Part shown: positions 4,710-20,629 of the stretch, one piece after another
How the letters are laid out: each line of letters starts with the position of its first letter
Position numbering within the stretch: the first letter of the stretch is position 1
IMG/VR virus record: IMGVR_UViG_3300035034_001986
Span: 1-23,290 of that record
DNA length: 23,290 bases
Strand: one strand, 5' to 3'
DNA from: a virus
Program-made: the position numbers and the translations under genes
The notes under the pieces: generated by a model
What the model saw: the letters and a program-made list of their open reading frames with translations, nothing else
Databases searched by the model: none
What the model was told of the DNA's origin: nothing

Positions 4710-6497
4710 ATGAGAGAAAACACAATCCAAGAGATACGTAATTTAATTTCTGTTGATGATAGCAGGGACGAACTTCTAACTCCATTCGGAAAAACCACTT
4801 TAGACAGAGGTTACAAGTTGGAAGACGAAAGCTATCAAGATGTTTTTGCTCGTGCTGCTGTTGCATTTTGTGGAGGTGACTATGAACTAGGTCAAAGGCT
4901 TTATGACTACAGCAGTAAACTTTGGTTGAGTTTTGCTAGCCCTTTAATTAGCAATGGGGGAACAACACGAGGTCTTCCAATTAGTTGTTTTTTAAACTAT
5001 GTTGATGACTCCATCCGTGGGCTTAGTGATAATTTTGAAGAAAATGCTTTTCTTGCAACTTCCGGAGGAGGAATTGGAAGTTATTGGGGGCACATTAGAG
5101 CAATAGGTGAAAAAACCAAAAAAGGAATTGAGTCTCCAGGAGTTTTTCCTTTCATGCACTGCATTGATTCACAAATGTTAGCTTACCACCAAGGCAACAC
5201 TCGACGTGGTGCTGCTGCTATGTACATGGATATTTCACACCCTGAAATTATTAAGTTCATTGAAATGCGGAAACCTACTGGAGATGAAAACGCGAAAAAT
5301 GAAAACTTACACCACGGTATTGGAGTCACTGATGAGTTTATGATTGCTGTCAGGGATGATCTTGACTGGCAACTCAAAGACCCAAATTCAGGCAACATCC
5401 ATGAAACTGTGAAAGCCAGGAACTTGTGGATTAAAATTTTAACAACTCGGGTTTCAACAGGTGAACCCTTTGTATTCTTCAAGGACACCGCAAAACGTGC
5501 TTTACCATTAGCCCAACAGATGCTTGGATTAGAACTTCACCACTCTAATTTGTGTACAGAAATAACTTTAGCAACAGCTAAAGACCGTACAGCGGTTTGT
5601 TGTTTGAGCAGTGTTAATATTGCAAAGTATGATGAGTGGAAGCCTTATGAGGAACAGTTTATCAGAGATTGTGTAACAATGCTTGACAATGTGTTGGAGG
5701 TGTTCATCAAAAAAGCACCAAAGGAACTTTGGAGAGCAACCAAAAGTGCAGAGAGCGAGCGTTCCATTGGGCTTGGGACATTGGGCTTTCATACATACTT
5801 ACAAAATAACAAAATTAGTATTGAGAGTGAAGAAGCAATTGAGTTCAACAAACACTTCTTTAAAATGATGAAAGTAAATGCTGTAAAGCAAACTCAGAGT
5901 TTAGCACTTGAACGAGGTGAACCTTCTGATCTTAAAGGTACTGGACGAAGGAATGCCCACCTGTTAGCAATTGCCCCAAATGCAACTAGCTCAATTATCT
6001 GTGGTACAATTAGTCCTGGGATTGAACCAATTCCAGGAGGAGTATTCAACCACAAGACTAAATCAGGGTCTAAGGAAGTCAGAAATTTAGCTTTAGTAAA
6101 ACTCCTAAAAACCTTAGGCAGAGATAATGAAGAAGTTTGGTCTAGTATTAGTGTTAATGACGGTAGTGTTCAGCATTTGAATTTTTTAACAGATGAACAA
6201 AAAACAATTTTCAAAACAGCCGTTGAAATTAATCAGGTAAAACTTGTTGAACTTGCAGCAGACAGGCAAGAATATATTTGTCAAGCCCAAAGCTTGAACT
6301 TGTTTGTCCAACCTGACATTGACACAAAAACCCTCCACAAACTGCATTATCTAGCTTGGGAGAAAAAATTGAAATCATTGTATTATTTACGAAGTGATGC
6401 TGAAAAAGGTGTTGAAAAAATTGGCAACATGATTGAACGAAAAGAACGAAAAGAATTTAATTGTACAGAAGAAGTCTGTACAGCATGTGAGGGATAA
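4710..6497 (+). CDS. nrdA: Class I ribonucleotide reductase, alpha subunit
   Basis: NrdA reduces ribonucleoside diphosphates to deoxy forms together with NrdB. At 595 residues it is much shorter than the E. coli enzyme (about 760) and has no N-terminal ATP-cone, so dATP feedback inhibition is probably absent, as often in phages. Catalytic features are present: N280-L-C282-T-E284 matches the thiyl-radical Cys439/Glu441 site, C93 and C297 fit the active-site redox pair, and LYYLRSD near the end carries the two Tyr of the radical path. The C-terminal CTAC (C590, C593) is the shuttle cysteine pair that thioredoxin or glutaredoxin would reduce. No such reductant is encoded in the window, so host reductants are probably used. 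nrdB follows directly. Confidence 0.96.
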   Translation: MRENTIQEIRNLISVDDSRDELLTPFGKTTLDRGYKLEDESYQDVFARAAVAFCGGDYELGQRLYDYSSKLWLSFASPLISNGGTTRGLPISCFLNYVDDSIRGLSDNFEENAFLATSGGGIGSYWGHIRAIGEKTKKGIESPGVFPFMHCIDSQMLAYHQGNTRRGAAAMYMDISHPEIIKFIEMRKPTGDENAKNENLHHGIGVTDEFMIAVRDDLDWQLKDPNSGNIHETVKARNLWIKILTTRVSTGEPFVFFKDTAKRALPLAQQMLGLELHHSNLCTEITLATAKDRTAVCCLSSVNIAKYDEWKPYEEQFIRDCVTMLDNVLEVFIKKAPKELWRATKSAESERSIGLGTLGFHTYLQNNKISIESEEAIEFNKHFFKMMKVNAVKQTQSLALERGEPSDLKGTGRRNAHLLAIAPNATSSIICGTISPGIEPIPGGVFNHKTKSGSKEVRNLALVKLLKTLGRDNEEVWSSISVNDGSVQHLNFLTDEQKTIFKTAVEINQVKLVELAADRQEYICQAQSLNLFVQPDIDTKTLHKLHYLAWEKKLKSLYYLRSDAEKGVEKIGNMIERKERKEFNCTEEVCTACEG

Positions 6498-6501
6498 CAG
6501 A

Positions 6502-7467
6502 ATGAGTAGTATTTTTGATAAAAGAACCAGTTACAAACCGTTTAACTACCCATGGGCTTATGAAGGTTGGCTAACAAGTGAAAAAGCTCACTGGATGACA
6601 AAAGAAGTTCCGTTAGGTGATGACGTACGTGATTGGAAAACAATTTTAAACTCAGGTGAAAAGAAACTGTTAACTCAAATTTTCCGTTTCTTCACACAAG
6701 CTGATTGTGATGTAGCAGTAGGTTATGTAGAACGTTACTTACCTCAGTTTAAACAAATTGAAATACGGATGATGTTACTTTCAATTGCTGCTCGGGAATG
6801 TGTTCATATTGATGCTTATTCAAAGTTGATTGAAGAACTTGGACTACCAGAGGTTGAGTATAGTGCTTTTCTTGAGTATGGTGAAATGAAAGAAAAACAT
6901 GACTACATGTTTCAACAGCGTGATGGGTTAGAAGGACTAGCCCAGGACATGGCAGTGTTCAGTGCTTTTGGAGAGGGTTTGCAACTATTTAGCAGCTTTG
7001 TTATCCTATTGAACTTTACACGGTTTGGTAAAATGAAAGGAATGGGGCAGCTTGTAACTTGGTCAATTCGTGATGAATCACATCATGTTGACTGCATGAT
7101 TAAACTTTATAAGACTTTGTTAGATGAAAATCCAACAATCTGGACTGACAGGTTTAAGTCAAAACTCTATGCAACTTGTGAATACATGGTTGGAATGGAA
7201 GACAAATTTATTGACTTAGCTTACCAGGAAGCAGGAGACATTGAAGGACTAACACCCGAAGAAGTAAAGCAGTACATCCGCTATATTGCCAATAAACGTC
7301 TTGGACAGCTTGACCTGAAACCAATGTTTTCAGAACAAATGGTGAATCCTTTACCTTGGGTTGATTCAATTGTTAACGGAAAAGAACATACAAATTTCTT
7401 TGAAAACAAACCAACAGTTTACACTAAAGCCTCAGTGACAGGTAATTGGAATGAAGCTTTTGACTAA
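6502..7467 (+). CDS. nrdB: Class Ia ribonucleotide reductase, beta subunit
   Basis: The start at 6502 is chosen over an in-frame ATG at 6433 because GAGGG at 6489-6493 precedes it and it follows the nrdA stop; the product is 321 residues. The ferritin-like metal ligands are visible: D68, E99, H102, E158, E192 and H195. Y106 sits seven residues after E99, the same spacing as the tyrosyl-radical Tyr122 after Glu115 in E. coli NrdB, so a tyrosyl-radical (class Ia type) enzyme is expected. The protein supplies the radical to NrdA. It is the last gene before the hairpin at 7498-7535, so helicase, nrdA and nrdB probably form one transcription unit. Confidence 0.96.
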   Translation: MSSIFDKRTSYKPFNYPWAYEGWLTSEKAHWMTKEVPLGDDVRDWKTILNSGEKKLLTQIFRFFTQADCDVAVGYVERYLPQFKQIEIRMMLLSIAARECVHIDAYSKLIEELGLPEVEYSAFLEYGEMKEKHDYMFQQRDGLEGLAQDMAVFSAFGEGLQLFSSFVILLNFTRFGKMKGMGQLVTWSIRDESHHVDCMIKLYKTLLDENPTIWTDRFKSKLYATCEYMVGMEDKFIDLAYQEAGDIEGLTPEEVKQYIRYIANKRLGQLDLKPMFSEQMVNPLPWVDSIVNGKEHTNFFENKPTVYTKASVTGNWNEAFD

Positions 7468-7497
7468 ATAAAAATAGTTAACCCAAGTGGTGGTTAA

Positions 7498-7535
7498 GGC
7501 TGTCCCCAATTTTGGTTTAGTGGTTGGGGACAGCC
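7498..7535. terminator. Intergenic hairpin after nrdB
   Basis: GGCTGTCCCC at 7498-7507 pairs perfectly with GGGGACAGCC at 7526-7535 around an 18-base loop. There is no T-run. The right arm GGGGACAG is close to GGGGGCAG of the hairpin at 3455, so the two structures that bracket the helicase-nrdA-nrdB block look related. It may end or stabilise that transcript. Confidence 0.55.
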
Positions 7536-7557
7536 AACAAACGAAAGGTCCATAAGC

Positions 7558-8103
7558 ATGAGAGCTAAAGAATTTTACAACTTCATGGAAGAGCGTGAGT
7601 CCATACGGATTAAACGTGAACAGGGTTCAGAGTGGCCTTGGACAGAAGATGAAATTTTACAACAATATAAATTTACAAATGTAAAACGTGAACACGACAA
7701 AACAACGATGAAATTGAAAGAACTTTTTTATGAAAATTCCGAGTTTCAGTCATATTCACTTAAAAGCCACTTTATCAACTGTATTATATTTCGATTTATT
7801 GGTAAGTGGGAAACCTGTCGTGACATTGGCTATACCTCAGAGTTGGATGTCAAACACATACGTAAAACTGTAACTGATATTAGAGAGCAGGGTAAAGTAG
7901 CATTCACTTCTGCTTATATATTACCAGCTTTTGGAGATAAAGACCCTAAAATTGATATTCTTATAAGGAGGGTTTTCTTGCCGATGTGGTCACAACTTGA
8001 ACCTCTGCTCACAACCATCCGCGAAACCAATTGCTGGGAGCCTCTCTTCACTGAAATGAAGAATATGGATGGGTTTGGAGGAGCTCAAAGAGGTTTTGCT
8101 TGA
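7558..8103 (+). CDS. Thymine pyrophosphorylase/5-hmdU DNA kinase-like, N-terminal part
   Basis: The 181-residue frame carries the N-terminal signature I associate with the alpha-glutamyl/putrescinyl-thymine pyrophosphorylase (aGPT-Pplase)/5-hmdU DNA kinase family: FYNFMEERESIRIKRE, then WPWTEDEILQQYKFTN and VKREHDKTT near residues 25-50. These proteins act on thymidine hypermodification in phage DNA: 5-hydroxymethyluracil is activated and then decorated. The ORF runs out at GFGG and an early stop, while the rest of the domain continues in the +1 frame from about 8080, so this is half of a gene split by a frameshift. AAAGG at 7544-7548 precedes the start. The ThyA-like gene downstream fits the same pathway. 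Family recognition is from memory of motifs, without a database search. Confidence 0.75.
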   Translation: MRAKEFYNFMEERESIRIKREQGSEWPWTEDEILQQYKFTNVKREHDKTTMKLKELFYENSEFQSYSLKSHFINCIIFRFIGKWETCRDIGYTSELDVKHIRKTVTDIREQGKVAFTSAYILPAFGDKDPKIDILIRRVFLPMWSQLEPLLTTIRETNCWEPLFTEMKNMDGFGGAQRGFA

Positions 8104-8404
8104 TACAATGTTTACCCCTATTTGGGCTAATGGTAAACCTGATGACTATAACACTTTTTGCCCAGTTGGCCCTGGAGCTGAGAGAGGACTGAATCGTTTA
8201 ATGGGTCGTGAATACAAGCAGCGAGTTGTGTTTGAGCAGAAACTAAAAGAGATGAAATTACTTTTCAAAAAACGAGATAAGTATTGGAAAGGTCCTGAAC
8301 TTTGTCTGCACGACATTCAATTCCAACTTTGTGAGTGGGATAAGTATCAGCGTGTAATTCTGGGGCAAGGTCGTCCACGAAATAAATATAAGAGAGTACT
8401 GTGA
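8069..8404 (+). CDS. Thymine pyrophosphorylase/5-hmdU DNA kinase-like, C-terminal part
   Basis: This +1 frame continues the preceding gene. FCPVGPGAERGLNRLMG, LCLHDIQFQLCEWDKY and the terminal GQGRPRNKY are the C-terminal signature of the aGPT-Pplase/HMUDK helical domain, and EVLLDTMF fits where the N-terminal part stops. An independent start (ATG 8069) exists, with no clear Shine-Dalgarno site of its own. Joined, the two parts would give about 280 residues, a plausible full domain. Removing one base near 8078-8092, for example one A of the CAAAG run, restores one frame. It could be a real mutation, a programmed +1 shift, two interacting polypeptides, or a sequence error. Confidence 0.7.
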   Translation: MGLEELKEVLLDTMFTPIWANGKPDDYNTFCPVGPGAERGLNRLMGREYKQRVVFEQKLKEMKLLFKKRDKYWKGPELCLHDIQFQLCEWDKYQRVILGQGRPRNKYKRVL

Positions 8405-8544
8405 AACCGTTTGAATATATTTTAAATTTAGGGTACAACCTATGTAAATGCAACCAGTGTAAACAACAAAAGAAAAAACGTAGTAACCTAAAAACTGCTG
8501 CAAGACAAAAAGTAAAACAAGAAATAAAGAAAGAAATAGAATGA
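8401..8544 (+). CDS. Small basic Cys-rich protein, 47 aa
   Basis: A GTG start at 8401 overlaps the preceding TGA as GTGA and opens a 47-residue frame ending at 8544. The middle holds a CKCNQC cluster, followed by a strongly basic tail (KQQKKKRSNLKTAARQ). This pattern suggests a small zinc-knuckle-like nucleic-acid-binding protein. The function is unknown. The coupling to the modification gene and the uninterrupted frame support it as a real gene. Confidence 0.55.
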   Translation: MKPFEYILNLGYNLCKCNQCKQQKKKRSNLKTAARQKVKQEIKKEIE

Positions 8545-8731
8545 TGCTCGTTTCAAGATCAGTTGATTAGCTGTCAACAGTGCTGCAACAGTAAATTCGT
8601 TACTAAAAGCTTGGCTAGAAATCAAACCTTTTGTTGGGGAACTTGTTAACTTAGGAAAACAAACAACAGCACTAGCTTTACCTAAAGCTGAACTAAACCG
8701 TGTTTTCAATTTACCAAAGGAAGTAAAATAA
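8541..8731 (+). pseudogene. Broken small ORF before the ThyA-like gene
   Basis: The frame from 8567 to the stop at 8729-8731 reads AVNSAATVNSLLKAW, then EIKPFVGELVNLGKQT, ending LNRVFNLPKEVK. It looks coding and its stop overlaps the next ATG as TAATG, but it has no ATG, GTG or TTG start. An in-frame TGA at 8564-8566 would be Trp in NDARFKIS-W-LAVNS. A start ATG at 8541 or 8544 lies in another frame. A decayed or mis-sequenced gene of about 60 residues is the best explanation. Confidence 0.4.
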
Positions 8732-9744
8732 TGTATGTATTTAATGTAAGGAATGTAAGTGATGCTCTACCTATCGTCTTGCACAAACTGAGTGAAGTTG
8801 GAGTTGAGCGAGATAGCCAAAATGGGTATGTTACAAAATTTTCTGGACCTGTCACAACAAAATACAACCGTCCACAAGAACGAGTTATGTTTCACCCTGA
8901 GCGGGATTGTAACCCATTCTTTCATCTTTTTGAAAGCTTATGGATGTTAGCAGGTAGAAATGATGTTGCTTGGTTGGAACAATTCAACTCTAATATTTCA
9001 AATTACAGTGATGATAAAGTTACTTTCCATGGAGCTTATGGCCACCGTTGGATTAAACATTTTCACTTTGATCAACTTAAAAAAATTATTGAAGCTCTGT
9101 CAATAAATACTGATGATCACCGTTGTGTACTACAAATGTGGGACGCTAAAGTTGATCTTTGCAAACAAGGTAAAGATTTTCCTTGCAGCTTAATGGCTGT
9201 TTTCAGTGTGAATGATAACAGCCAGCTAGACATGACTGTCTACAACCGATCAAACGACATTGTCTGGGGAGCCTATGGTGCTAACGCTGTTCACTTTTCA
9301 ATGTTGCAAGAATATGTTGCAGCAGCACTTGGCCTCCCTATGGGTAAGTATTGGCAAGTTTCAAACAATTTGCACGCTTATAAGGATACTCTTGAAAAAG
9401 TCAAAGGTCTTGAAAGCATGGGTGAAGAATTGTCTGGTTTATCAGTTTCTAAAAACCCTTACGACACAGTCAAACCTTATCCTATGGTTTCTACTTCAAT
9501 TAAAAGTTGGAATTTTGACTTAGAAGTTTTCATGGCAAAAGGTCCTGTCTGTGGACTTAATGATCCATTTTTTAAACAAGTTGTCACTCCCCTCTGGTGG
9601 GCTTGGAAAGCATTCAAACAAAAAGACGATCCTCGTCGTTTCACAAATGCTCTAAACAATGCAAAAAATTGCAGAGCTGAAGACTGGAAGCTAGCCTGTT
9701 GCGAGTGGTTACAACGACGTGAGGAAAAAGCAAATGCAAAATGA
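8731..9744 (+). CDS. ThyA-like thymidylate synthase or dUMP hydroxymethylase
   Basis: The 337-residue protein belongs to the thymidylate synthase fold. FESLWMLAG at 67-75, GAYGHRW at 101-107, the nucleophile region DFPCSL with C152, and NRSND at 172-176 followed by GAN with N185 match the family in order. N185 sits where thymidylate synthase Asn177 selects uracil; dCMP hydroxymethylases carry Asp there, so dUMP is the expected substrate. Phage members of this family make either dTMP or 5-hydroxymethyl-dUMP with methylene-tetrahydrofolate, and the sequence alone does not settle which. The neighbouring aGPT-Pplase-like gene favours hydroxymethylation. AAGGA at 8717-8721 precedes the start. The next gene starts inside its 3' end. 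Confidence 0.85.
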   Translation: MYVFNVRNVSDALPIVLHKLSEVGVERDSQNGYVTKFSGPVTTKYNRPQERVMFHPERDCNPFFHLFESLWMLAGRNDVAWLEQFNSNISNYSDDKVTFHGAYGHRWIKHFHFDQLKKIIEALSINTDDHRCVLQMWDAKVDLCKQGKDFPCSLMAVFSVNDNSQLDMTVYNRSNDIVWGAYGANAVHFSMLQEYVAAALGLPMGKYWQVSNNLHAYKDTLEKVKGLESMGEELSGLSVSKNPYDTVKPYPMVSTSIKSWNFDLEVFMAKGPVCGLNDPFFKQVVTPLWWAWKAFKQKDDPRRFTNALNNAKNCRAEDWKLACCEWLQRREEKANAK

Positions 9745-10291
9745 GGTCTTAAATAAAATAGCCCACACAAGAGCAGCAGGCGCGGTCAAGAGATGTCATG
9801 TTATGCGGATTCTTGGTGAGTATAATAATGCTATGCACCAATGGAATACAACAATGCTTTTATGGTATTTGTTTCCTGAGAAATTCACAAAGCTTGCTCC
9901 CTATTGCCTTTCTCACAACATTGGTGAAGTTGTAATGGGGGATATACCTGCTACAGTTAAATGGTCTCTTGGGGAAACGGTAAATCAAATTGAAAAAATT
10001 GAAGAAGAAACAATTGGGTATTTAGGGTTTCCAACTTGTTCAGAACTAGAGTATGATGACTTAAAAATTGTCAAAGCTTGTGATTCTCTGGAACTTTATT
10101 TGTTTTGTCTTGAACAGTTGCAAATGGGTAATATGCTTGTTTTTGGGTGTAAAGAAAATCTTGAAGCTCACTTCAGAACAGGCTGGTTACCAACTATCGC
10201 TCTTGACTTTTATTATTCTCTAGTGCAAGGTGGTTTGCCCTTAAGTACACAGGAAAGCGGTGGTAAAAGACTTAGAACAGTTAAAGTCTGA
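9734..10291 (+). CDS. HD-family phosphohydrolase, YfbR/5'-nucleotidase-like
   Basis: The start at 9734 follows GAGGAA at 9721 and overlaps the ThyA-like gene; a GTG at 9719 is the other option. The 185-residue protein has the YfbR-like layout: H22 and H35 in the first helices, LSHNIGEVVMGDIPATVKW at 59-77, and D117 in ACDSLE. YfbR-type enzymes remove phosphate from deoxynucleoside monophosphates. In phages with unusual bases such activities lower unwanted pools, so the setting beside ThyA-like and dCMP deaminase genes makes sense. The metal-binding HD pair reads H61-N62 here, an Asp-to-Asn change that may weaken or abolish metal binding. Confidence 0.75.
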   Translation: MQNEVLNKIAHTRAAGAVKRCHVMRILGEYNNAMHQWNTTMLLWYLFPEKFTKLAPYCLSHNIGEVVMGDIPATVKWSLGETVNQIEKIEEETIGYLGFPTCSELEYDDLKIVKACDSLELYLFCLEQLQMGNMLVFGCKENLEAHFRTGWLPTIALDFYYSLVQGGLPLSTQESGGKRLRTVKV

Positions 10292-10491
10292 TTGGAAAGA
10301 GCACCCCTGTTTGCAAAAAATATACTTGTAGGAATGTTGAACAACTTTCAGAAATGTTGGTCAAAAACCACAACACTCTAGTTAGTGTTGAAGGCTTGGC
10401 ATCAGGATACTTATATCAAAAACAAATTGAACGAACACAAAAACTAAGAAAGGAACTTGAGGAATGCAAAGAGCAAATGAAAAACAAATAG
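10260..10491 (+). pseudogene. Small gene with frameshift in an A6 run
   Basis: A GTG at 10260 with AGGAAA five bases upstream opens VVKDLEQLKSDWKEHPCLQK and stops at 10329-10331. From the six-A run at 10315-10320 the +1 frame continues as YTCRNVEQLSEML, VSVEGLASGYLYQKQI and a charged KLRKELEECKEQ end, stopping at 10489-10491 inside the next gene. Taking one A from the run joins both into a protein of about 76 residues with a C-terminal coiled-coil-like segment. Function unknown. Programmed frameshifting or transcript slippage on A6 is possible. Confidence 0.5.
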
Positions 10492-10904
10492 GGGGTGATC
10501 ATTACAGGTGTAAGTACCAACATTGGGACTTTGCTACAAAAAACCATTTAGACTATCTACAAGGTTGCGCAACAAAATATGTTTCACGTTGGCGCAAAAA
10601 GAATGGAATACAGGACTTAAAGAAATCTCTCCACTATGTAGAAAAGTTATCTGAAAACTTTAAAGAAAGATTTGGTGAAAAAGCCTCAATACGTGAATTA
10701 AGTTTATTTCAACAGTTTAATGAACTAATTGATGAAGAGACTAAAATCATTGGGTTGATTTGCAATTACAAAACTCTAAAAAACTTGAAAGAAGCAGAGG
10801 TCAGGATTAAAATGTTGATTCAAATGGAAGAGGCAAAGCAGTCCAAAATTGACCCAACAGGTCAAGACAGCCCATTTGGGGTTGATAAAAAAAGTAGACA
10901 TTGA
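10464..10904 (+). CDS. DUF3310 protein, T7 gp1.7 nucleotide kinase-like
   Basis: The first 65 of 146 residues carry the DUF3310 signature: KQIGGDHY, then QHWDF, LDYLQGCATKYVSRW and DLKKSLHYVEKL. T7 gp1.7 with this domain phosphorylates dTMP and dGMP without a normal Walker motif, so a thymidylate kinase-like role in the local pyrimidine pathway is likely. The rest is a helical, charged extension that gp1.7-type proteins also tend to have. AAGGA lies about ten bases before the ATG. It overlaps the end of the frameshifted small gene by 28 bases and precedes the DNA polymerase gene. Confidence 0.85.
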   Translation: MQRANEKQIGGDHYRCKYQHWDFATKNHLDYLQGCATKYVSRWRKKNGIQDLKKSLHYVEKLSENFKERFGEKASIRELSLFQQFNELIDEETKIIGLICNYKTLKNLKEAEVRIKMLIQMEEAKQSKIDPTGQDSPFGVDKKSRH

Positions 10905-10925
10905 TAATTCAGGAAAAAACAACTA

Positions 10926-12923
10926 ATGCAAAATTCACTCTTTGCACCAAAGATTACATGGAAAGCCCCTGAGCTCTCATCCTTACCTAGTTGGAAAGGT
11001 GTAAAGCGCCTTGCAATTGATTGTGAAACTTGTGACCCTCAACTCAAAAAATTAGGTATTGGTGTTCGCAGAGGAGGCTATATAACAGGAGTTAGTTTTG
11101 CAATTGAGGGTGGACCAAAACATTACTTACCAATGCGACATGTAGGGGGAGGTAACTTAGACCCCCAAGCTGTTCTAGGGTACTTGAGAGAGAATGCGGC
11201 TGAATTCGATGGTCAACTTGTTGGAGCAAAAATTAGTTATGACTTGGACTACTTGTGGGCAGAAAGTATATTCTTTCCAAAGGTTAGCTTCATTCGTGAT
11301 ATCCAAGTTGCTGAACCTCTAATTGATGAGAACCAATGGTCGTTTGGGCTTGCTAAAATTGGAACAAAGTACGGAATTGAAGCAAAAGACGAGGAACTAC
11401 TAAGAAAAGCTGCTTTAGAATTCAAAATTGATCCAAAAGCTGAAATGTATTTGCTCGAGGCAGGTTATGTAGGTGCATATGCTGAACAAGATGCAGTTAG
11501 TCCTCTTTTGATTTTACGGGAGCAGGAAAAAGAAATTGAAAAACAAGACCTCTGGGATATTTGGAATTTAGAAAGCAAAGTAACTCCAGTTCTTGTTAAA
11601 ATGAGAGCAAGAGGAGTCAAAATTGATCAAGACAAATTAGCTCAAGTTGAAGAGTACAGTCGCAAAGAAGCTGCAAAGGCAATGAAAGACCTACACAGAC
11701 AAACAGGAGTCTTAATCGATCCAATGCATGTCATGAACAACAACCAATGTAAAAAATTGTTTGATGCAGCAGAAATAAAATTAGGAAAGACCGCAACAGG
11801 AAAGTGGCAAATTGACCAAACTGTTCTTGAAGCAACAGGGGAACTTGGAGCTACCCTCAACTGGGCGCGTAAAATATCAAAACTTCGTACAACATTTGCC
11901 CAGTCAATCAGAAATTATATGGTTGACGGGAGAATTCATTGTACTTTCAACCAGATTGCTATGGATGATGGTTCAGGAAATAAGAATGCAGGAGCTCGCT
12001 ACGGTAGGTTAAGTGCTGTTGACCCCAACCTACAACAACAACCAAGTCGTGACGATTTCGCTGATTTCTGGAGGAGTATTTACATTCCTGAAGACGGTGC
12101 AATCTGGGATTGTAATGACTACAGCCAACAAGAACCACGATGGACAACACATTTTGCAGCGATAATGGGGTTCACAGGAGCTCCTGAAATGGCAAAACGC
12201 TACCGAGAAAACCCTGCTTTGGATAACCATAGTATGATGACTCGTCTTGTTCATGGAAAAAAAGTTGATTCAATGAATGCAAAGCAATACAAAAGTGCTC
12301 GTTCAGGATGTAAAGCCATTTTCCTTGGTTTGTGTTATGGAGAAGGTGGTGCAAAATTATGCAAAGACTTAGGATTGCCTACTCGCTGGGCTTTGTGTAA
12401 ACAGAGTGGAGGTGTACAATACTTTGAGAACAGAGGTGAAGCACTTGCCTATAAACAATCAAGAGGGGTACAGGGTTTTCTTTATGAAGCAGCAGGAGGA
12501 GAAGGTCAAAAAGTACTGGATGGTTTTGACCAAAAAGTTCCTTATGTACGTTTACTTGCCAGCCAAGCAAAACGTAGAGTTGATAAAAAAGGTTTTATCA
12601 GGACGGTAGGTGGTCGTAACTTGCATTTTCCTGTTCGTGAAGACGGTAATTATGATTTCACACATAAATCTCTAAACAGACTTATACAAGGTAGCAGTGC
12701 TGATCAAACAAAAGCAGCCATGGTTGCAATTGACAGAGAAATGCCAGACACGTTTATGCAGTTACAAGTACATGATGAAATTAACAGTAGTGTAGCAAGC
12801 GTCCAAGAAGCAAAACAAATAGCAGAAATTATGAGCAACTGTGTTCCAAACACTCTTGTACCTTTTAAAGTTGATATCGAAATTGGACCAAGTTGGGGAG
12901 AAATAGAGGATGTATCAAAATGA
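10926..12923 (+). CDS. Family A DNA polymerase with 3'-5' exonuclease
   Basis: This is the replicative polymerase, 665 residues, close to T7 gp5 size. The exonuclease domain is intact: IDCET (D32, E34), YDLDY (D106) and YAEQD (Y185, D189). The polymerase domain has motif A DYSQQEPR (398-405, a phage variant of DYSQIELR), motif B with K463 and YG 471-472, and motif C HDE at 616-618. The residue matching E. coli Phe762 is Leu467, a variant common in environmental phage PolA proteins and linked in surveys to temperate or slower phages. No separate thioredoxin-binding loop is evident. The stop overlaps the dCMP deaminase start as ATGA. It gives no protein-primed (family B) signature. Confidence 0.97.
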   Translation: MQNSLFAPKITWKAPELSSLPSWKGVKRLAIDCETCDPQLKKLGIGVRRGGYITGVSFAIEGGPKHYLPMRHVGGGNLDPQAVLGYLRENAAEFDGQLVGAKISYDLDYLWAESIFFPKVSFIRDIQVAEPLIDENQWSFGLAKIGTKYGIEAKDEELLRKAALEFKIDPKAEMYLLEAGYVGAYAEQDAVSPLLILREQEKEIEKQDLWDIWNLESKVTPVLVKMRARGVKIDQDKLAQVEEYSRKEAAKAMKDLHRQTGVLIDPMHVMNNNQCKKLFDAAEIKLGKTATGKWQIDQTVLEATGELGATLNWARKISKLRTTFAQSIRNYMVDGRIHCTFNQIAMDDGSGNKNAGARYGRLSAVDPNLQQQPSRDDFADFWRSIYIPEDGAIWDCNDYSQQEPRWTTHFAAIMGFTGAPEMAKRYRENPALDNHSMMTRLVHGKKVDSMNAKQYKSARSGCKAIFLGLCYGEGGAKLCKDLGLPTRWALCKQSGGVQYFENRGEALAYKQSRGVQGFLYEAAGGEGQKVLDGFDQKVPYVRLLASQAKRRVDKKGFIRTVGGRNLHFPVREDGNYDFTHKSLNRLIQGSSADQTKAAMVAIDREMPDTFMQLQVHDEINSSVASVQEAKQIAEIMSNCVPNTLVPFKVDIEIGPSWGEIEDVSK

Positions 12924-13351
12924 CAAGTAAATGGGATGAACGATTTTCACAATTATGTCTTCTTGTAGCAAGTTGGTCAAAAGACCCTTCTACAAAAGTT
13001 GGAGCAGTAATTGTTGACAACAACAACCGCATTTTGGGCGTGGGGTATAATGGGTTTCCAAGAGGAATTTCTGACTTAAAAGAGCGATATGAGGACAAGC
13101 CCACAAAGTACCGTATGGTAGTTCATGCTGAAGCAAATGGAATTTTGAATTCAACAGGTAATGTGCAGGATGCAACTTTGTATGTTTCCCCTCTGCCTCC
13201 CTGTTGTGAATGCAGCAAACTAATTATCCAAGCTGGTATAACTAAAGTGAAAATTTATGCTCCAATTGAAATTAGTGATAAGTGGAAAAACGAGTTTGAC
13301 TTTAGTTCTGAAATGCTAACAGAAGCTGGAATTGAGCTTAGTTTTGTCTGA
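12920..13351 (+). CDS. dCMP deaminase
   Basis: The start at 12920 overlaps the polymerase stop; the product is 143 residues, the usual size for the family. Zinc site and proton donor are present: H69-A-E71 (HAEANGI) and PCCEC with C95 and C98. GFPRG at 46-50 and the early SKDPSTKVGAV segment are typical of deoxycytidylate deaminases rather than cytidine deaminases. The enzyme converts dCMP to dUMP, which is the substrate of the ThyA-like enzyme upstream. T4-type dCMP deaminases are allosterically controlled by dCTP and dTTP; whether this one is cannot be read here. Confidence 0.93.
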   Translation: MTSKWDERFSQLCLLVASWSKDPSTKVGAVIVDNNNRILGVGYNGFPRGISDLKERYEDKPTKYRMVVHAEANGILNSTGNVQDATLYVSPLPPCCECSKLIIQAGITKVKIYAPIEISDKWKNEFDFSSEMLTEAGIELSFV

Positions 13352-13736
13352 ACGTGATATGAGAGGAAAGGTTACAAAGTACCTTCAGGAGTTGGACGCA
13401 ATAGCTGTTGAAAACCCTGCTTACCCAGGAACACCCGATGTAAATTTTATTGAGGGGTGGTTTGAATTAAAGTGGTTGCGCGATTGGCCAAAAGGTGAAG
13501 ACACAGTAGTTAAATTTAGCCATTACACTCCACAACAAAAAGTATGGATGAAGCGCAGACACACAAAAGGAGGCAGAGTTGCTTTACTTGTGCAATGTAA
13601 AAGAGAATGGTTTATGTTCAAATACCCTCAGTTGATAGATGTTGGGAAATTAACTAAGACAGAAATGTTTGAACAGTGTCACACTTACACAAACACAATG
13701 ACAAAGGAGGTCCTAATAAAATGGGCATTGAACTAA
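13332..13736 (+). CDS. VRR-NUC-like PD-(D/E)xK nuclease
   Basis: The frame of 134 residues opens with TTG at 13332 overlapping the deaminase end; an ATG at 13359 (MRGKVTKYL) is an alternative start, and neither has a strong Shine-Dalgarno site. PGTPD at 32-36 followed by FELKW (E45, K47) forms the PD-ExK nuclease core, and YTPQQKVWMKR is typical of VRR-NUC proteins. Related phage nucleases cleave branched or flap DNA or take part in recombination. It sits between replication enzymes, and its last codons contain the strong Shine-Dalgarno site of the HTH gene. Confidence 0.8.
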   Translation: MSLVLSERDMRGKVTKYLQELDAIAVENPAYPGTPDVNFIEGWFELKWLRDWPKGEDTVVKFSHYTPQQKVWMKRRHTKGGRVALLVQCKREWFMFKYPQLIDVGKLTKTEMFEQCHTYTNTMTKEVLIKWALN

Positions 13737-14050
13737 CAAAAGGCGAAGAGCTGTGGGTTCAGCGTAAACGACTCAACTTAACTCAGAAACAAATGTCTGT
13801 AGTTTACAAAGTAGCTTTAGACAAGTACACACATTGGGAAAGAGATGAGCGTAGTGACCACATACATACTTACAAAGTCAGAGATTTAACTGGAGGTGAA
13901 CTCTCACAAATACTTCGTAGAAGAGTTGGAATGCTGCAAAGTGAACTTGCACTTGCAATTGGTTGTTCTGAAACTTGGGTAAGAATGATGGAAAAAGGAC
14001 AAGTAAAAGCAAATAGATTAGTGGAATATTGGGGAAGAAATGACAAATAA
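13721..14050 (+). CDS. Double helix-turn-helix transcriptional regulator
   Basis: The ATG at 13721 is chosen because a full AAAGGAGGT (13703-13711) lies nine bases upstream, the strongest ribosome site in the window. The 109-residue protein has two HTH-like units: RKRLNLTQKQMSVVYKVALD around residues 15-45, and RRRVGMLQSELALAIGCSET around 67-95. Both have the XRE layout of a short basic helix, Q.ELA and a W or S recognition start. It probably regulates phage promoters, perhaps the repeated TTGCGT sites, but no operator is identified. The primase-helicase starts within its last codons. Confidence 0.8.
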   Translation: MGIELTKGEELWVQRKRLNLTQKQMSVVYKVALDKYTHWERDERSDHIHTYKVRDLTGGELSQILRRRVGMLQSELALAIGCSETWVRMMEKGQVKANRLVEYWGRNDK

Positions 14051-16382
14051 AACAACAGAGTTTCTAAAGTTATACAACGAAAAAGGACCATGGATACTTA
14101 CTTCAATCCACCCTGATAGAAAAGGTATAGAGACAAAAACATTTGATAACAGTTCAATTAACCAACTTGAAAAATGGGTAGCAAAATATAATGGAGAACG
14201 TAATTTATATTTTCATGTCAATTCTACCCTCTACCCTTTAACAAAAAAGGCTGATCGCAAAGACATCAAAAGTGTTGACTACCTACATGTAGACATTGAT
14301 CCAAGAGAGGGTTATGACCTTAATCAAGAGCGTGACCGTACACTTGACTTACTCATGAAGAATCGCCCAAAAGGTGTACCCGCTCCAACTTGCATCATTT
14401 TCTCAGGTGGTGGCTATCAGGGTTTTTGGAAGCTGAAAGAGTCAATTAAGGTTGATGGTGACATTGGGCTTGCTGAGGATGCAAAGCGCTACAATCAGCA
14501 GCTTGAGCATTTGTATGCTGCTGACAACTGCCACAACATTGACCGTATTATGCGTCTTCCAGGAACGATGAATATTCCAGATGCGCGTAAACGCAAAAAA
14601 GGTCGCGTTGAAACTGAGGCGTATCTCGTTGAGTTTGATGCAAGCCGTGAATATGACTTGAGTGAGTTTAACCAAGCCCAAACAGTACAGACAGGAGCAG
14701 AAAGTTTTAGTGGAGGTATCAACCATGTACCAATTCAAATTAGCGGTAACATTGAACGCCTAGTAAATGTTGATGACTTAGATCAATGGGATGTTCCTGA
14801 CCGCCTCAAAGTTGTTATTGTTCAGGGTAGAGACCCAGAAAACCCTAAAAATGGAGACAATAGTAGGAGTGCATGGGTTTTTGATTGTGTCTGTAATTTA
14901 ATACGTTTTGAAGTTCCTGATGACGTTATTTTTAGTATTATGACAGACCCAGAGTTTGGAATTGCAGCGAGTATACTTGAACAAAAAGGTAATGTTGAAA
15001 AATATGCAATACGACAAATTGAACGAGCAAAAGAACATGCAATTGATCCATGGCTTGTTAAACTCAATGAACAATTTGCAGTCATTGGTAGTATGGGTGG
15101 AAAATGCCGCATTGTTGAAGAGACTTATGATGCAGGGCTAAAACGTAGCCGCCTAACAAAACAGTCTTTTGAAGATTTCCGTAACAGGTATTTGAACAAG
15201 TTAATTCAAGTTGGTGAAACCCAAGAAGGTCAAGCAAAGTTTATGCCTGTGGGCAAGTGGTGGTTGATTAATGAGAAACGTCGACAATATGATTTCCTTG
15301 GTTTTTATCCTGGAGAAAGTGATCCTAATACCTATAATTTATGGAGAGGTTTTAGTGTACCCACAACTCCTGGAGACTGTGAACCTTTCTTAGACCATAT
15401 ACGTAGGAATGTTTGCAGCAACAGAGATGACCTTTATGATTATGTTATTGGTTGGATGGCACGCTGCGTCCAAAGCCCAGACACTACAGGGCAAGTCGCA
15501 CTTGTGTTACGGGGTGGGCGAGGGACTGGTAAAAGTTTCTTTGCAAAACAATTTGGAGCTCTTTTTGGACGACACTTTATGCAAGTAAGCAACTCTGGAC
15601 ATTTGGTAGGTAATTTTAATTCACATCTACGTGATGTAGTTTTGCTTTTTGCAGATGAAGCTTTTTACGCAGGTGACCGCAAACATGCAAGCGTATTGAA
15701 AACACTAATTACAGAAGAAACAATTCCAATTGAAGCTAAAGGAGTGGACATTGAAACTGCTCCAAACTATGTCCACTTGATTATGGCAAGTAACGACATG
15801 CATGTGATTCCTGCTGGTGGAGATGAAAGGCGCTTTTTGGTTCTGGATGTAGGTAACGAAAATAAACAAGATACAACTTACTTTAGCAACTTGGCAAAGA
15901 AACTTGAAGATGGAGGATATGCGGCGCTGCTGCATTTCTTGATGAGTTACGACCTTTCAGAGTTCAATGTTCACACAGTTCCACAAACAGATGCACTACG
16001 TGAGCAAAAACTTTTGAGTTTACATGTTGAAGAAGAGTGGTGGTATCAAAAATTATATAATGGAACAGTCCTACAAAATGACACAGAGTGGCAAGAGGTG
16101 ATACCTAAAGAAGCACTAGTGGATGATTTTATTGACAATGCAAAACGCTTTAACGTCACTCGTAGAGGTACAGCAACGAGCCTAGGTAGGTTCTTAGGTA
16201 AACTTGTCCCAAACATTCAACAAAGACAGATGATGGGTAAAGTAAATAGAGTTGCTCCGGATGGTTTTAGTTATGTTGAAACAAAACGAATGTACCATTA
16301 CATATTACCTAGTTTAGAGGAGTGCCGAAAACATTGGGACAAAAGCTATGGAAAAGAAACTTGGCCAATAACTGAATTATAA
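14040..16382 (+). CDS. AEP-type primase fused to SF3-like helicase
   Basis: The 780-residue protein combines two activities. The N-terminal part has archaeo-eukaryotic primase features: HVDID with D85 and D87, SGGGYQGFW at 122-130, and HNIDRIMRLPGT around 165-175. The C-terminal part is a DUF5906/superfamily 3-like AAA+ helicase with Walker A GGRGTGKS at 492-499, Walker B-like VVLLFADEAF, and a sensor-like LIMASND followed by GGDERRF. Such fusions unwind DNA and prime synthesis, and in many phages and plasmids they replace separate DnaB and DnaG proteins and open the origin. With the polymerase and SSB this gives a nearly self-sufficient replisome. The start overlaps the HTH gene and has GGGGAAG upstream. 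Confidence 0.92.
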   Translation: MTNKTTEFLKLYNEKGPWILTSIHPDRKGIETKTFDNSSINQLEKWVAKYNGERNLYFHVNSTLYPLTKKADRKDIKSVDYLHVDIDPREGYDLNQERDRTLDLLMKNRPKGVPAPTCIIFSGGGYQGFWKLKESIKVDGDIGLAEDAKRYNQQLEHLYAADNCHNIDRIMRLPGTMNIPDARKRKKGRVETEAYLVEFDASREYDLSEFNQAQTVQTGAESFSGGINHVPIQISGNIERLVNVDDLDQWDVPDRLKVVIVQGRDPENPKNGDNSRSAWVFDCVCNLIRFEVPDDVIFSIMTDPEFGIAASILEQKGNVEKYAIRQIERAKEHAIDPWLVKLNEQFAVIGSMGGKCRIVEETYDAGLKRSRLTKQSFEDFRNRYLNKLIQVGETQEGQAKFMPVGKWWLINEKRRQYDFLGFYPGESDPNTYNLWRGFSVPTTPGDCEPFLDHIRRNVCSNRDDLYDYVIGWMARCVQSPDTTGQVALVLRGGRGTGKSFFAKQFGALFGRHFMQVSNSGHLVGNFNSHLRDVVLLFADEAFYAGDRKHASVLKTLITEETIPIEAKGVDIETAPNYVHLIMASNDMHVIPAGGDERRFLVLDVGNENKQDTTYFSNLAKKLEDGGYAALLHFLMSYDLSEFNVHTVPQTDALREQKLLSLHVEEEWWYQKLYNGTVLQNDTEWQEVIPKEALVDDFIDNAKRFNVTRRGTATSLGRFLGKLVPNIQQRQMMGKVNRVAPDGFSYVETKRMYHYILPSLEECRKHWDKSYGKETWPITEL

Positions 16383-16384
16383 AC

Positions 16385-16412
16385 TTGCGTTCTGTTGATT
16401 TGTTGTTATAGT
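16385..16412 (+). promoter_or_regulatory. Sigma70-like promoter, repeated 14-mer copy 1
   Basis: TTGCGT at 16385-16390 and TATAGT at 16407-16412 are 16 bases apart, just after the primase-helicase stop. The 14-mer TTGCGTTCTGTTGA (16385-16398) recurs exactly at 19495-19508, also in a promoter position. It would drive the small-gene operon from 16440. Confidence 0.6.
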
Positions 16413-16439
16413 CAATAAAGAAATTGAGGGAGAAAAGAA

Positions 16440-16728
16440 ATGATGAACGATCTTGAGTTTAAAGCTTGGTTAATGTCATTAAAAATACCTGAAAATACTT
16501 GTAGATTTGATAATGGTTTTCACCAGAGCAGTGATACAATTTTAGGATTGACTACTAGATTTTGTACAGCAAGTAATTCACAAAAAATCAAAAATATTGT
16601 GGCAAGATGAAGAAATTGCAAGCTTAAGGAAAGCCTTGCTTCACAATCTTGAGCGAGTTGTTTTTGACTGTGCTAAAATAAATATTTACCTAGAAGAGGG
16701 CAACCACGATGATGTTGGTACTTGGTAA
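16440..16728 (+). pseudogene. Small gene with frameshift in an A6 run
   Basis: An ATG pair at 16440/16443 after GAGGGAG (16426-16432) opens MMNDLEFKAWLMSLKIPENT and stops at 16608-16610 (56 codons). From the six-A run at 16582-16587 the +1 frame continues as SKILWQDEEIASLRKALL, RVVFDCAKINIYLEEG and ends at 16726-16728. Removing one A would give a protein of about 95 residues. Function unknown. The same CAA AAA A context is seen in the lesion at 10315. Confidence 0.5.
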
Positions 16729-17053
16729 TAAACTCCCTAACTCTGCTGTTATCTGTTCTTCTGAAGAAGTTGTTCATTGGATTATTTCTAGTCCTTGGGC
16801 AAAGCGCATGGAATACACACAACTCCTTCCTGGTTACCTTAGCTGTCATGTTATACACAACGGCCAAGGACAAGGTGTATGTATTGTTGAAACCACTAAA
16901 GTAAAAACAGAACCTCCAGTGTGCTATAAATTTTCAGAATGTGAACATGTTTTTGATGTTGAAGTACTTAGTGTTTTTCACTATCGAGAAACGTGCCGTA
17001 AATGCAAATTGCAACGAGACTTTGATAGCGGGGATTGTCATTCTTATGACTAG
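16709..17053 (+). CDS. Hypothetical protein with C-terminal Cys/His cluster
   Basis: The 114-residue frame starts with two ATG codons (16709, 16712); GAGGG lies about ten bases upstream. I do not recognise the family. The C-terminal half has spaced Cys and His residues (CYKFSECEH, then HYRETCRKCKLQRDF) that could bind zinc, in the arrangement often seen in small phage proteins. The middle contains GQGQGVCIVE. It overlaps the end of the broken gene before it and the DenV start after it, which supports real translation. Confidence 0.6.
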   Translation: MMLVLGNKLPNSAVICSSEEVVHWIISSPWAKRMEYTQLLPGYLSCHVIHNGQGQGVCIVETTKVKTEPPVCYKFSECEHVFDVEVLSVFHYRETCRKCKLQRDFDSGDCHSYD

Positions 17054-17456
17054 AATCAATTGTATACCTCCAGAGGAATTAACAACTCTACACCTACTAG
17101 CAGAATATAGGGAGTTGCCTCGTGTATTTACCTTAGCTCAAGCTGCTTCTGTTAAAAACAGCAACAGAGAATTGAAAGAGTTGCCAGAAAATTACTGTTT
17201 GGGAAAAGGTCATGTTACCTTCTTTTATAACAAATTGCGCTATTGTTGGTTACGTTGGCTCTGTATAGCAGCTGAATTAACAAAAAGAGGAATACGTTGT
17301 GACCCAAACATTCGAACAAGTATTCTAAAAGCTATAGCACCTTTGTCCATTACTACACTGTGGAATAATTGGGAACCAAAACCTTGCGACCAGTATATTA
17401 ACCGAGAGAGAATTAGGGAGAGATTAGATGAATACCACGCTAAAAATGGTAAGTGA
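17046..17456 (+). CDS. denV: Pyrimidine-dimer DNA glycosylase, endonuclease V
   Basis: The start at 17046 gives MTRIN at the N-terminus, as in T4 endonuclease V, whose exposed Thr2 amine forms the Schiff base with DNA; 105 bases of open frame upstream are therefore not translated. The catalytic pair T2 and E23 is conserved in the same numbering, inside HLLAEYRELPRVF, and LGKGHVTFFYNKL follows. At 136 residues the length equals the T4 enzyme (138). The enzyme nicks DNA at UV-induced cyclobutane dimers. It could protect thymine-rich phage DNA in sunlit habitats. It overlaps both neighbours by a few bases. Confidence 0.93.
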   Translation: MTRINCIPPEELTTLHLLAEYRELPRVFTLAQAASVKNSNRELKELPENYCLGKGHVTFFYNKLRYCWLRWLCIAAELTKRGIRCDPNIRTSILKAIAPLSITTLWNNWEPKPCDQYINRERIRERLDEYHAKNGK

Positions 17457-17916
17457 TTTTAACACTGCTTTTAATATTGAACAAGCTGATGAAGAGTTTC
17501 CACGGTTTATTGACCGTGATTTAGAGACTGTTGAAATTTTAGAGATAGTAGTAGAAATACTACAAAAAACATCCCACCAACTCTTGAAAGCAATTGAAGC
17601 AAAGAATACTAATGTAACATTATTAAGATCACACTTGATGATTGAGGAATTAGCAGAGGTTTTAGCTTCCATTGCAGAAGGTGATATGGTTAGTTGTTTA
17701 CATGAACTCGCAGATTTGCGCTATGTTTGCGACGGTACTGCTATTTGTTTTGGGCTTGATAATAAGTTAGAACGTGCTGTTTCTGAGGTACATAAAGCAA
17801 ACCTAAGTAAACTTGATGGGGCAGGCAAGCCCATCATCAGTGCAGCTGGTCGTGTTGTAAAGAGTGAAAACTTTGTTGCAGTAGATGTTAATCATCTTTT
17901 TTCAAAGGAGAACTAA
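17428..17916 (+). CDS. MazG-like nucleotide pyrophosphohydrolase
   Basis: The 162-residue protein has the all-alpha NTP pyrophosphatase pattern: EELAE, then HELADLRYVCDG, forming the ExxE...ExxD magnesium site, followed by VHKANLSKLDGAGKPI, which is typical of the phage MazG/PRA-PH-like subgroup. Such enzymes hydrolyse dNTPs to dNMPs and pyrophosphate. Together with the HD hydrolase and dCMP deaminase it could steer the pyrimidine pool. The start at 17428 has GGAG about seven bases upstream; an ATG at 17446 is less likely. It overlaps the denV end. Confidence 0.85.
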   Translation: MNTTLKMVSDFNTAFNIEQADEEFPRFIDRDLETVEILEIVVEILQKTSHQLLKAIEAKNTNVTLLRSHLMIEELAEVLASIAEGDMVSCLHELADLRYVCDGTAICFGLDNKLERAVSEVHKANLSKLDGAGKPIISAAGRVVKSENFVAVDVNHLFSKEN

Positions 17917-17917
17917 A

Positions 17918-18076
17918 ATGAAAATAAACTTTTTAGGGTTACTAATACTTTTATTTATTGGGTTAAAACTAACAGAACAAATTGATTGGTCATGGTGGTG
18001 GATTTTTTCACCTTTACTTATCCCATTTTTTCTCATTAGTCTTGGTACTTTTTTCTTGGTATTTTTCAAAAAATGA
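17918..18076 (+). CDS. Small membrane protein, transmembrane Fragile-X-F-like
   Basis: AAAGGAG at 17904-17910 fixes the start at 17918, giving 52 residues. Two hydrophobic segments, about 4-17 and 29-50, flank LKLTEQIDWSWWW. That Trp-rich motif matches the small phage proteins annotated as transmembrane Fragile-X-F proteins; their function is unknown. Both ends are short and a hairpin in the inner membrane is likely. The stop overlaps the next ATG as ATGA. Confidence 0.75.
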   Translation: MKINFLGLLILLFIGLKLTEQIDWSWWWIFSPLLIPFFLISLGTFFLVFFKK

Positions 18077-18249
18077 AAATTATTTTAATTGGAAAGCAGG
18101 GTTCCGGAAAAACCACTTGGGCAAACAGGATTGCGTGTGCAATGGTAAAAGAGGGTATACAAGTACAGGTTAGCAAAGGTTCAAAAGTTTTAGTTTGTGA
18201 TCCAGGAGTTGAAGTAGAAATTCAAATATTTACAGAAAGTAAAAAGTAA
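18073..18249 (+). CDS. 58-residue P-loop protein
   Basis: The frame starts at 18073 in the ATGA overlap and ends in a TAATG overlap with the exonuclease gene, so it is tightly coupled on both sides. The start MKIILIGKQGSGKTTWANRI is a perfect beta strand plus Walker A P-loop (GKQGSGKT). The protein ends at 58 residues, far too short for a complete kinase or ATPase; no Walker B is present. DPGVEVEIQIFTESKK at the end forms a second strand. Two related possibilities are a miniature nucleotide-binding protein working as an oligomer and a trimmed remnant of a nucleoside kinase. Confidence 0.7.
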   Translation: MKIILIGKQGSGKTTWANRIACAMVKEGIQVQVSKGSKVLVCDPGVEVEIQIFTESKK

Positions 18250-20234: not shown

Positions 20235-20318
20235 TTGGAAAATGACGAAATACGTGCCGATGTACGTAGTGAATATGAACAGCTAACAAAGTGGTTAGCA
20301 GCAACTGGGGATGTTTGA
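20235..20318 (+). CDS. Short acidic peptide, 27 aa, TTG start
   Basis: The frame from TTG 20235 reads ENDEIRADVRSEYEQ and ends KWLAATGDV, its stop overlapping the next ATG as TGATG. Composition and coupling look coding, but there is no clear ribosome site and the start could be lost; an ATG at 20228 is in another frame. It may be a remnant. Confidence 0.3.
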   Translation: MENDEIRADVRSEYEQLTKWLAATGDV

Positions 20319-20629
20319 TGAAATATGTAATGTTTGCAAATAATGGTGTTTTAGAAAAACACTTTATTAAGAGTTTTGGGGTATCTGTTAAAAATGATGA
20401 TAGTTGTGTAGGTTTCTTTGGAACTGGTCTAAAGTATGCACTTGCTATTCTTGTTAGGACTGGAGCACGAGTCGTTATTTACAGTGATAAAGAAGTGTTT
20501 AAATTTGACAAGGTTAAACAAGAACTAAAAGGTAAAGTTTTTGACTTTGTTACAATGAATGGGGAGATCATGCCTTTTACAACTGAGTTGGGTAAAACTT
20601 GGGAGCTGCTACGTTGGAATCAACGGTAG
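20318..20629 (+). pseudogene. 3'-truncated ATP-binding (GHKL-like) phage protein
   Basis: From ATG 20318 the 103 residues contain GVSVKNDD and VGFFGTGLKYALAILVR at 31-47, the glycine-rich lid pattern of GHKL ATPases, then FTTELGKTWELLRWNQR and a stop. Phage homologues that I recall continue with a REL..N..DE segment, so the gene appears cut right after NQR. The cut coincides with the sharp rise in GC content near 20630. It is probably the left half of a recombination or chimera junction. Confidence 0.45.

Follow-up and report, generated by a model that had tools for sequence, protein, structure and literature searches.

A Mesyanzhinovviridae-like phage fragment with a probably decayed hydroxymethyluracil-tailoring island, and the alternative partners of its PF18723 protein

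Thymidine hypermodification in phage DNA is understood to follow a route that leads from 5-hydroxymethyl-deoxyuridine (5-hmdU, or hmdU) through a kinase to amino-acid transfer. Among the closest described systems, M6 carries 5-NedU as its DNA base (cited part of PMC6449724), the M6-type cassette is listed as Nmad5, aGPT-Pplase1, a kinase and aGPT-Pplase2 (in the section of PMC9476957 used here), and a deoxyuridylate (dUMP) hydroxymethylase is present in every member of the Mesyanzhinovviridae analysed, according to the relevant passage of PMC11946847. For pelagiphages, the excerpt of PMC9599517 on which we draw describes a thymidylate synthase (TS) beside aG/PT-PPlase1 near PolA, with a glucosyltransferase-like gene in some clades. 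Here we analyse IMG/VR record IMGVR_UViG_3300035034_001986, a fragment of a virus genome that was taken whole (23,290 bases, referred to as the window), and in it the genes around a helical protein, HMUDK_hel (PF18723), and a ThyA-like enzyme. With a probability of roughly 0.6, we read the window as a Mesyanzhinovviridae-like fragment of a phage that would make 5-hydroxymethyl-dUMP and whose island for tailoring 5-hydroxymethyl-uracil (hmU) has decayed, the ancestor having probably glycosylated hmU and the present phage probably carrying bare 5-hmdU. The features that bear on this reading are the following (ORF, open reading frame).

7558..8103, plus strand: N-terminal part of HMUDK_hel (PF18723), frame 1; Pfam E 1.3e-24, profile positions 5-177 of 281
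8069..8404, plus strand: C-terminal part of HMUDK_hel (PF18723), in another frame; Pfam E 1.3e-7, profile positions 198-275 of 281
8077..8092, plus strand: lesion with a frame change, the conserved GFGG[ST]GF[MI][AT]KE stretch being shortened; from both frames aligned with 10 clade members, and from the DNA
8402..8545, plus strand: small ORF of 47 codons, with a co-linear match to Nmad5 positions 107-133 that is not significant alone (E 0.56)
8567..8728, plus strand: C-terminal remnant of an Nmad5 gene (PF18757); own profile E 7.7e-11, positions 133-181 of 184
8731..9744, plus strand: predicted deoxyuridylate hydroxymethylase (ThyA-like), intact; phrog_5131 E 1.1e-128, Pfam Thymidylat_synt E 7.6e-24, tree and active-site columns

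A preliminary description of this DNA had reported an aGPT-Pplase/5-hmdU kinase-like gene next to the ThyA-like gene. The location stands, with PF18723 at 7558-8103, but what lies there is not a single kinase gene: only the helical partner is matched, and this domain, which a 5-hmdU DNA kinase would hold in one open frame, is readable in two frames only. All 10 aligned clade-mates read GFGG[ST]GF[MI][AT]KE at the site of the lesion, with 15 nt between the GG and K codons, as against 4 in the window, a net shortfall of 11 nt. The C-terminal piece retains the conserved GPG..RG and CE.DKY.R stretches, and all 17 further window genes that were compared with a homologue align with it in a single frame across most or all of their length. 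When conservation was scored over the columns that are invariant among 18 clade-mates, the window was found to retain 52 of 71 for PF18723, where in a leave-one-out control every clade-mate keeps at least 71 of 79, and 79 of 82 for the ThyA-like protein. Mean identity to the clade follows the same pattern, at 0.38 for the window versus 0.57 among the others for PF18723, and 0.54 versus 0.58 for the ThyA-like protein. The best reading is that the PF18723 gene is a frame-broken pseudogene without the hairpin of a helix-hairpin-helix-like motif.

The clade to which this gene belongs was defined from loci collected as the best 80 of 339 with PF18723 and the best 80 of 567 with the ThyA-like protein, two partly overlapping sets, and the PF18723 tree comprises 123 distinct sequences after exclusion of identical ones and of matches spanning fewer than 200 profile positions. 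In this tree the window belongs to a 22-row group (SH-aLRT 100); of the 21 remaining members, 18 have a partner of the group-1-like glycosyltransferase kind (GT1), 3 have a TAGT partner and none has a kinase. The two halves of the protein, each placed separately with 44 other rows, give the same answer, the 13 clade members sampled being joined by the N half at 100/99 and by the C half at 99/92. In 21 of 21 clade loci the PF18723 and ThyA-like genes are separated by a gene for a glycosyltransferase. One of these loci, L141, has a fuller island consisting of PF18723, TAGT, APH-like and HAD-like ORFs, a nucleotidyltransferase-like ORF, Nmad5 and the ThyA-like gene, where the APH-like, HAD-like and nucleotidyltransferase-like names come from reading the sequences by eye, not from searches. 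Because the partner in these relatives is a glycosyltransferase, glycosylated hmU is probable for the ancestor and bare 5-hmdU for the present phage, and the comparison suggests that a sugar is likelier than an amino acid or polyamine to have been the lost decoration.

Between the broken PF18723 gene and the ThyA-like gene lies the Nmad5 remnant, which was absent from the preliminary gene list. It was detected with a profile built with the window rows left out and searched among 655 window pieces; Pfam PF18757 matches it at E 3.3e-5 and 24.5 bits, below the cut-off of 27. Its N-terminal part is gone, and the stretch contains no ATG, GTG or TTG start. A full Nmad5 gene stands immediately before the ThyA-like gene in L141 and in M6, with one 37-codon ORF between them in M6.

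The ThyA-like gene itself is intact. A tree of 32 proteins places its product with SPO1 gp29 and the M6 and PaMx11 homologues (100/100, branch 4.7), with six thymidylate synthases, E. coli ThyA included, outside; SPO1 gp29, annotated as a dUMP hydroxymethylase in its database record, lies far from the window protein within this tree. The preliminary description had named grouping with true thymidylate synthases as an outcome that would speak against it; the tree instead separates the protein from them at 100/100, and the grouping with hydroxymethylases supports the proposed synthesis of 5-hydroxymethyl-dUMP. Cys152 and Asn185 of the window protein align with E. coli positions 146 and 177, where C and N are kept and which we take to be the catalytic Cys and the dUMP-selecting Asn, in agreement with the earlier assignment of N185; both residues are common to both enzyme kinds. 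The Trp at E. coli position 80, present in 6 of 6 synthases, is replaced by Ile in the window; the remaining rows displayed on the hydroxymethylase side have Met or Ala there. We drew nothing from T4 gp42, which sits on a very long branch and is apparently misaligned in the Asn column. Within the wider group, the window protein joins five loci of the PF18723-glycosyltransferase-ThyA type with modest support (81/89). The prediction that this gene encodes a deoxyuridylate hydroxymethylase of the SPO1 gp29 / M6 gp58 kind holds.

Searches for the enzymes that would act on hmU in DNA, made across the whole 23,290-base fragment, gave no match to the P-loop kinase PF18748 (at E 10), to the amino acid:DNA transferase (ADDT) PF18724, or to TAGT PF20691 and the GT1-like profile, and the 326 nt separating the PF18723 and ThyA-like genes contain no tailoring enzyme. 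We rejected an intact 5-hmdU kinase in view of the two frames of PF18723, the lesion and the missing PF18748 in this record. The activation of hmU by such a kinase, as first envisaged, is not borne out, the PF18723 gene being frame-broken and both of its halves belonging to a glycosyltransferase-partnered clade whose 21 other members are kinase-free. The earlier remark that genes attaching side chains are not seen agrees with the lack of PF18724, PF20691 and GT1-like matches in the record, and a sugar is a likelier lost decoration than the amino acids or polyamines that it names. ORF 18073-18246, which carries a P-loop motif, GKQGSGKTT, was considered as another kinase candidate and discarded, being too short for a known kinase at 58 codons and matching the kinase profile at E 0.24.

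The choice of partner was then counted over all loci, some of the island-gene profiles having been built from the loci collected here. Among 153 loci, which are not deduplicated by contig and include the window and its own copy, a kinase accompanies PF18723 in 72, a GT1-like gene in 22, TAGT in 22, a kinase together with TAGT in 2 (included in both counts) and neither kind in 39. For the 123 distinct tree rows the figures are 53 with a kinase, 23 with GT1, 16 with TAGT, 2 with both, 28 with no partner, and the window. By Pfam, the two glycosyltransferases are of a group 1/4-like kind (Glycos_transf_1 E 8.5e-7 for L055; L098 falls below the cut-offs) and of the TAGT kind (PF20691 E 1.2e-20 for L147 and 1.2e-30 for L029), the latter being the enzyme by which T6-like phages likely attach a second glucose to hydroxymethylcytosine that is already glucosylated, according to the cited portion of PMC13390438. 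Scans of 50 whole records gave kinase matches in 7, all of them kinase-type records or the M6, PaMx11 and May controls, and in none of the 43 others; TAGT was matched in 11 of the 50 and the GT1-like profile in 17; no record matched both of these profiles, and the 12 kinase-type records matched neither. PF18723 occurs with a glycosyltransferase and no kinase in records of up to 77 kb. Alongside the PF18723 helical protein one finds a P-loop kinase or one of two unrelated glycosyltransferases, and almost never both. A search of the open literature did not find this exchange of partners described, which is no proof of absence. In the 28 partnerless distinct rows, PF18723 and a ThyA-like gene are present with neither partner in the available DNA; 25 of them form one set, which resembles the pelagiphage arrangement (cited part of PMC9599517) in gene arrangement alone.

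Some individual loci depart from these patterns. L056 and L146 are the only two with both a P-loop kinase and TAGT near PF18723. In L090 (Bacillus phage Goe26, 2053-3963), a single gene close to a ThyA-like gene encodes PF18748 and PF18723 as a fusion protein. L047 (9051-9896), like similar loci, has PF18723 beside a ThyA-like gene with no kinase or glycosyltransferase in the available DNA, and in L047 a SAM methyltransferase-like gene lies immediately upstream (Methyltransf_23 E 2.2e-8).

The fold of the protein was modelled with AlphaFold2 on an intact clade member, L116 (29-row alignment, pLDDT 93.9). The model is mostly helical, with a helix (162-169), a loop and a second helix (180-189) around the conserved GFGGTGFM. 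Foldseek returned no match at E 0.001, and searching by sequence gave no solved structure for one PF18723 protein and two non-significant matches for the profile. In VIA-align, the best 16 rows were DNA glycosylases and the queuine salvage protein DUF2419, at Z 5.5-9.5 with the next row at 3.9, although Z below 13 may be common for helical folds; these included DUF2419 (9.5), Mag1 (9.3, rmsd 4.3 over 175 aligned), AGOG (8.7), Tm OGG (8.6), MUTYH (6.1) and OGG1 (5.8). We presume that the matched glycosylases and DUF2419 share the HhH-GPD superfamily fold and that the L116 loop is its helix-hairpin-helix. The model is suggestive of a PF18723 fold akin to that of HhH-GPD DNA glycosylases; if so, the break would take away the DNA-binding hairpin. 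Tentatively, the PF18723 protein may be a subunit of DNA-glycosylase fold, serving to recognise 5-hydroxymethyl-uracil in DNA or to flip it and to pass it to exchangeable enzymes, whether a P-loop kinase for amino-acid hypermodification or either kind of glycosyltransferase, and not part of the kinase as such.

The genes of the window run on one strand in the order SNF2-like helicase, Dda-like helicase, ribonucleotide reductase (RNR) large and small subunits, PF18723 pieces, ThyA-like, HD, DUF3310, PolA, dCMP deaminase, primase (a name carried by the M6 and FP1 homologues) and MazG-like. The confirmed family matches are all far above chance, and the ThyA-like, HD, DUF3310, dCMP deaminase and MazG-like genes of the preliminary description lie where it had put them, as judged by Pfam and PHROG profiles. 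The remaining features are as follows.

4710..6497, plus strand: ribonucleotide reductase large subunit, upstream island border; Pfam E 6.1e-113
6433..7467, plus strand: ribonucleotide reductase small subunit (ORF; first ATG at 6502), upstream island border; Pfam E 8.1e-69
9719..10291, plus strand: HD-domain 5'-deoxynucleotidase (YfbR-like); Pfam E 1.2e-10
10464..10904, plus strand: DUF3310 protein; Pfam E 4.7e-7
10926..12923, plus strand: family A DNA polymerase (PolA); Pfam E 1.4e-46, full-length against relatives
12920..13351, plus strand: dCMP deaminase; Pfam E 5.9e-23, phrog_174 E 1.6e-43
17428..17916, plus strand: MazG/PRA-PH-like pyrophosphohydrolase; Pfam E 3e-8

The HD protein at 9719-10291 also matches a dATP triphosphohydrolase family (phrog_7076 E 6.8e-9). 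The same gene order, with homologues, is found in the Mesyanzhinovviridae replication module (M6, FP1, PaMx11), and the assignment is by gene order and homology alone. An independent contig of the same phage, L175, is 99.96% identical over window positions 12387-17287 (2 mismatches, 0 gaps), the only part it covers, and a scan of genome contigs with PolA in search of a host found no relative. Towards the end of the window, a C5-cytosine methyltransferase ORF (20968-21885, Pfam DNA_methylase E 3.4e-20) overlaps by about 830 nt a second ORF in another frame (21056-21889, phrog_1008 'DNA methyltransferase', E 1.9e-22); G+C around these ORFs (20968-21889) is about 0.51, versus 0.345-0.407 across the first 21 kb. 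ORF 20559-20915, which overlaps ORF 20291-20629, has no family match.

In the pathway that we envisage, RNR and dCMP deaminase would provide dUMP, the ThyA-like enzyme would hydroxymethylate it, and PolA would incorporate hmdUTP formed by phage or host kinases. Intact relatives would add a further step, in which hmU in DNA is recognised by the PF18723 protein and acted on by a kinase or glycosyltransferase. In the present phage this tailoring step would be lost, leaving bare hmdU unless genes outside the fragment supply it.

Several observations weigh against a decayed island as the explanation. The window row has a long branch in the PF18723 tree (1.6), and the 19 PF18723 columns scored as lost include one X at the artificial join and two gaps at the lesion. 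No second copy of the break was found, exact 28-base patterns flanking it having 0 stretches in viral_contigs and a search with the C-terminal piece likewise giving none. The RNR, PolA and primase of the window are closest to those of kinase-type phages, which, with PF18723 in a glycosyltransferase clade, makes the genome a mosaic. Of the 394 positions of phrog_8203, ORF 20291-20629 covers 1-97 alone; since this gene is apparently shortened, damage would extend beyond the island, and the idea that it is restricted to island genes is weakened. Finally, these 23 kb are a fragment of a genome whose remainder could encode a kinase or glycosyltransferase. The fragmentary state of this single record, like the want of a second copy, would also suit a sequencing or assembly error that conceals a working protein with its tailoring partner elsewhere. 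We consider such an error unlikely: the shortfall is of 11 nt within the most conserved stretch and not a one-base slip, the remainder of the PF18723 protein also shows reduced conservation, unlike the product of the adjacent gene, the island has a further truncated gene in Nmad5, and only 326 nt remain where all 21 clade-mates have a glycosyltransferase gene.

If instead the window held an M6-type island for 5-hmdU kinase and amino-acid hypermodification, as first proposed, and the absent genes lay beyond the ends of the fragment, the gene order shared with M6 and FP1 would be accounted for; in those phages, though, the kinase, ADDT, PLP and radical-SAM genes lie between RNR and the ThyA-like gene, so that they would be expected at 7468-8730, where they are not, and with PF18748 and PF18724 unmatched and the PF18723 halves in a kinase-free clade we give this view rather poor odds. 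It is very improbable that the two PF18723 pieces are overlapping ORFs (overlap 8069-8103) of a split but working protein. Conserved residues do survive in both pieces, and an in-frame ATG is available to the second at 8069, yet neither frame encodes the hairpin residues common to the 10 aligned clade-mates, and no other split locus was seen in a tree whose exclusion of short matches would drop split genes too. We attach equally little weight to a true thymidylate synthase and ordinary thymine in the DNA: Cys152 and Asn185 are what such an enzyme would keep, being common to both kinds, and the protein splits at 100/100, on a branch of 4.7, from six synthases whose shared Trp it has lost. A decayed tailoring island that leaves hmdU synthesis in place is the explanation we prefer.

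Were PF18723 a general hmU-recognition subunit, the hmU chemistry of a phage would become predictable from the neighbouring gene, and phages with glycosylated hmU (base-J-like) would form a large class awaiting characterisation and directly open to test. The window would then be a natural decay product that has reverted to bare hmdU, showing that a phage can shed the tailoring layer and still retain hmdU synthesis.

Compared with known systems, the window is like the cassettes of M6, SN1 and Bordetella FP1 in its order of RNR, island, ThyA-like, HD, DUF3310, PolA and dCMP deaminase, and in having PF18723 and Nmad5 adjoin the ThyA-like gene. The RNR-to-ThyA-like interval, at 7468-8730 in the window, holds ADDT (PF18724), PLP, radical-SAM, P-loop kinase (PF18748), PF18723 and Nmad5 in M6 and FP1, whereas the window fragment differs from all three phages in having no ADDT, PLP, radical-SAM or P-loop kinase gene, a broken PF18723 of another clade and a truncated Nmad5. 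With the kinase-ADDT-FAD cassette of PaMx11 and Epa5 it has the ThyA-like enzyme and the backbone in common, and the kinase, ADDT and FAD genes are not in the fragment. The IMG/VR loci L098, L116 and L162 (PF18723, glycosyltransferase, ThyA-like) and L141 (with TAGT and Nmad5) belong to the same PF18723 clade, but their PF18723 is intact and their glycosyltransferase present, both of which the window has lost. Pelagiphages of the HTVC023P type, as described in the cited part of PMC9599517, likewise have a PF18723-like gene beside a ThyA-like gene and PolA; they differ in their podovirus backbone, and no broken gene is reported in that part of the source. SPO1-type Bacillus phages are an unrelated group, yet they share the dUMP hydroxymethylase, and their DNA carries as bare hmU the very base that we predict for the phage of the window.

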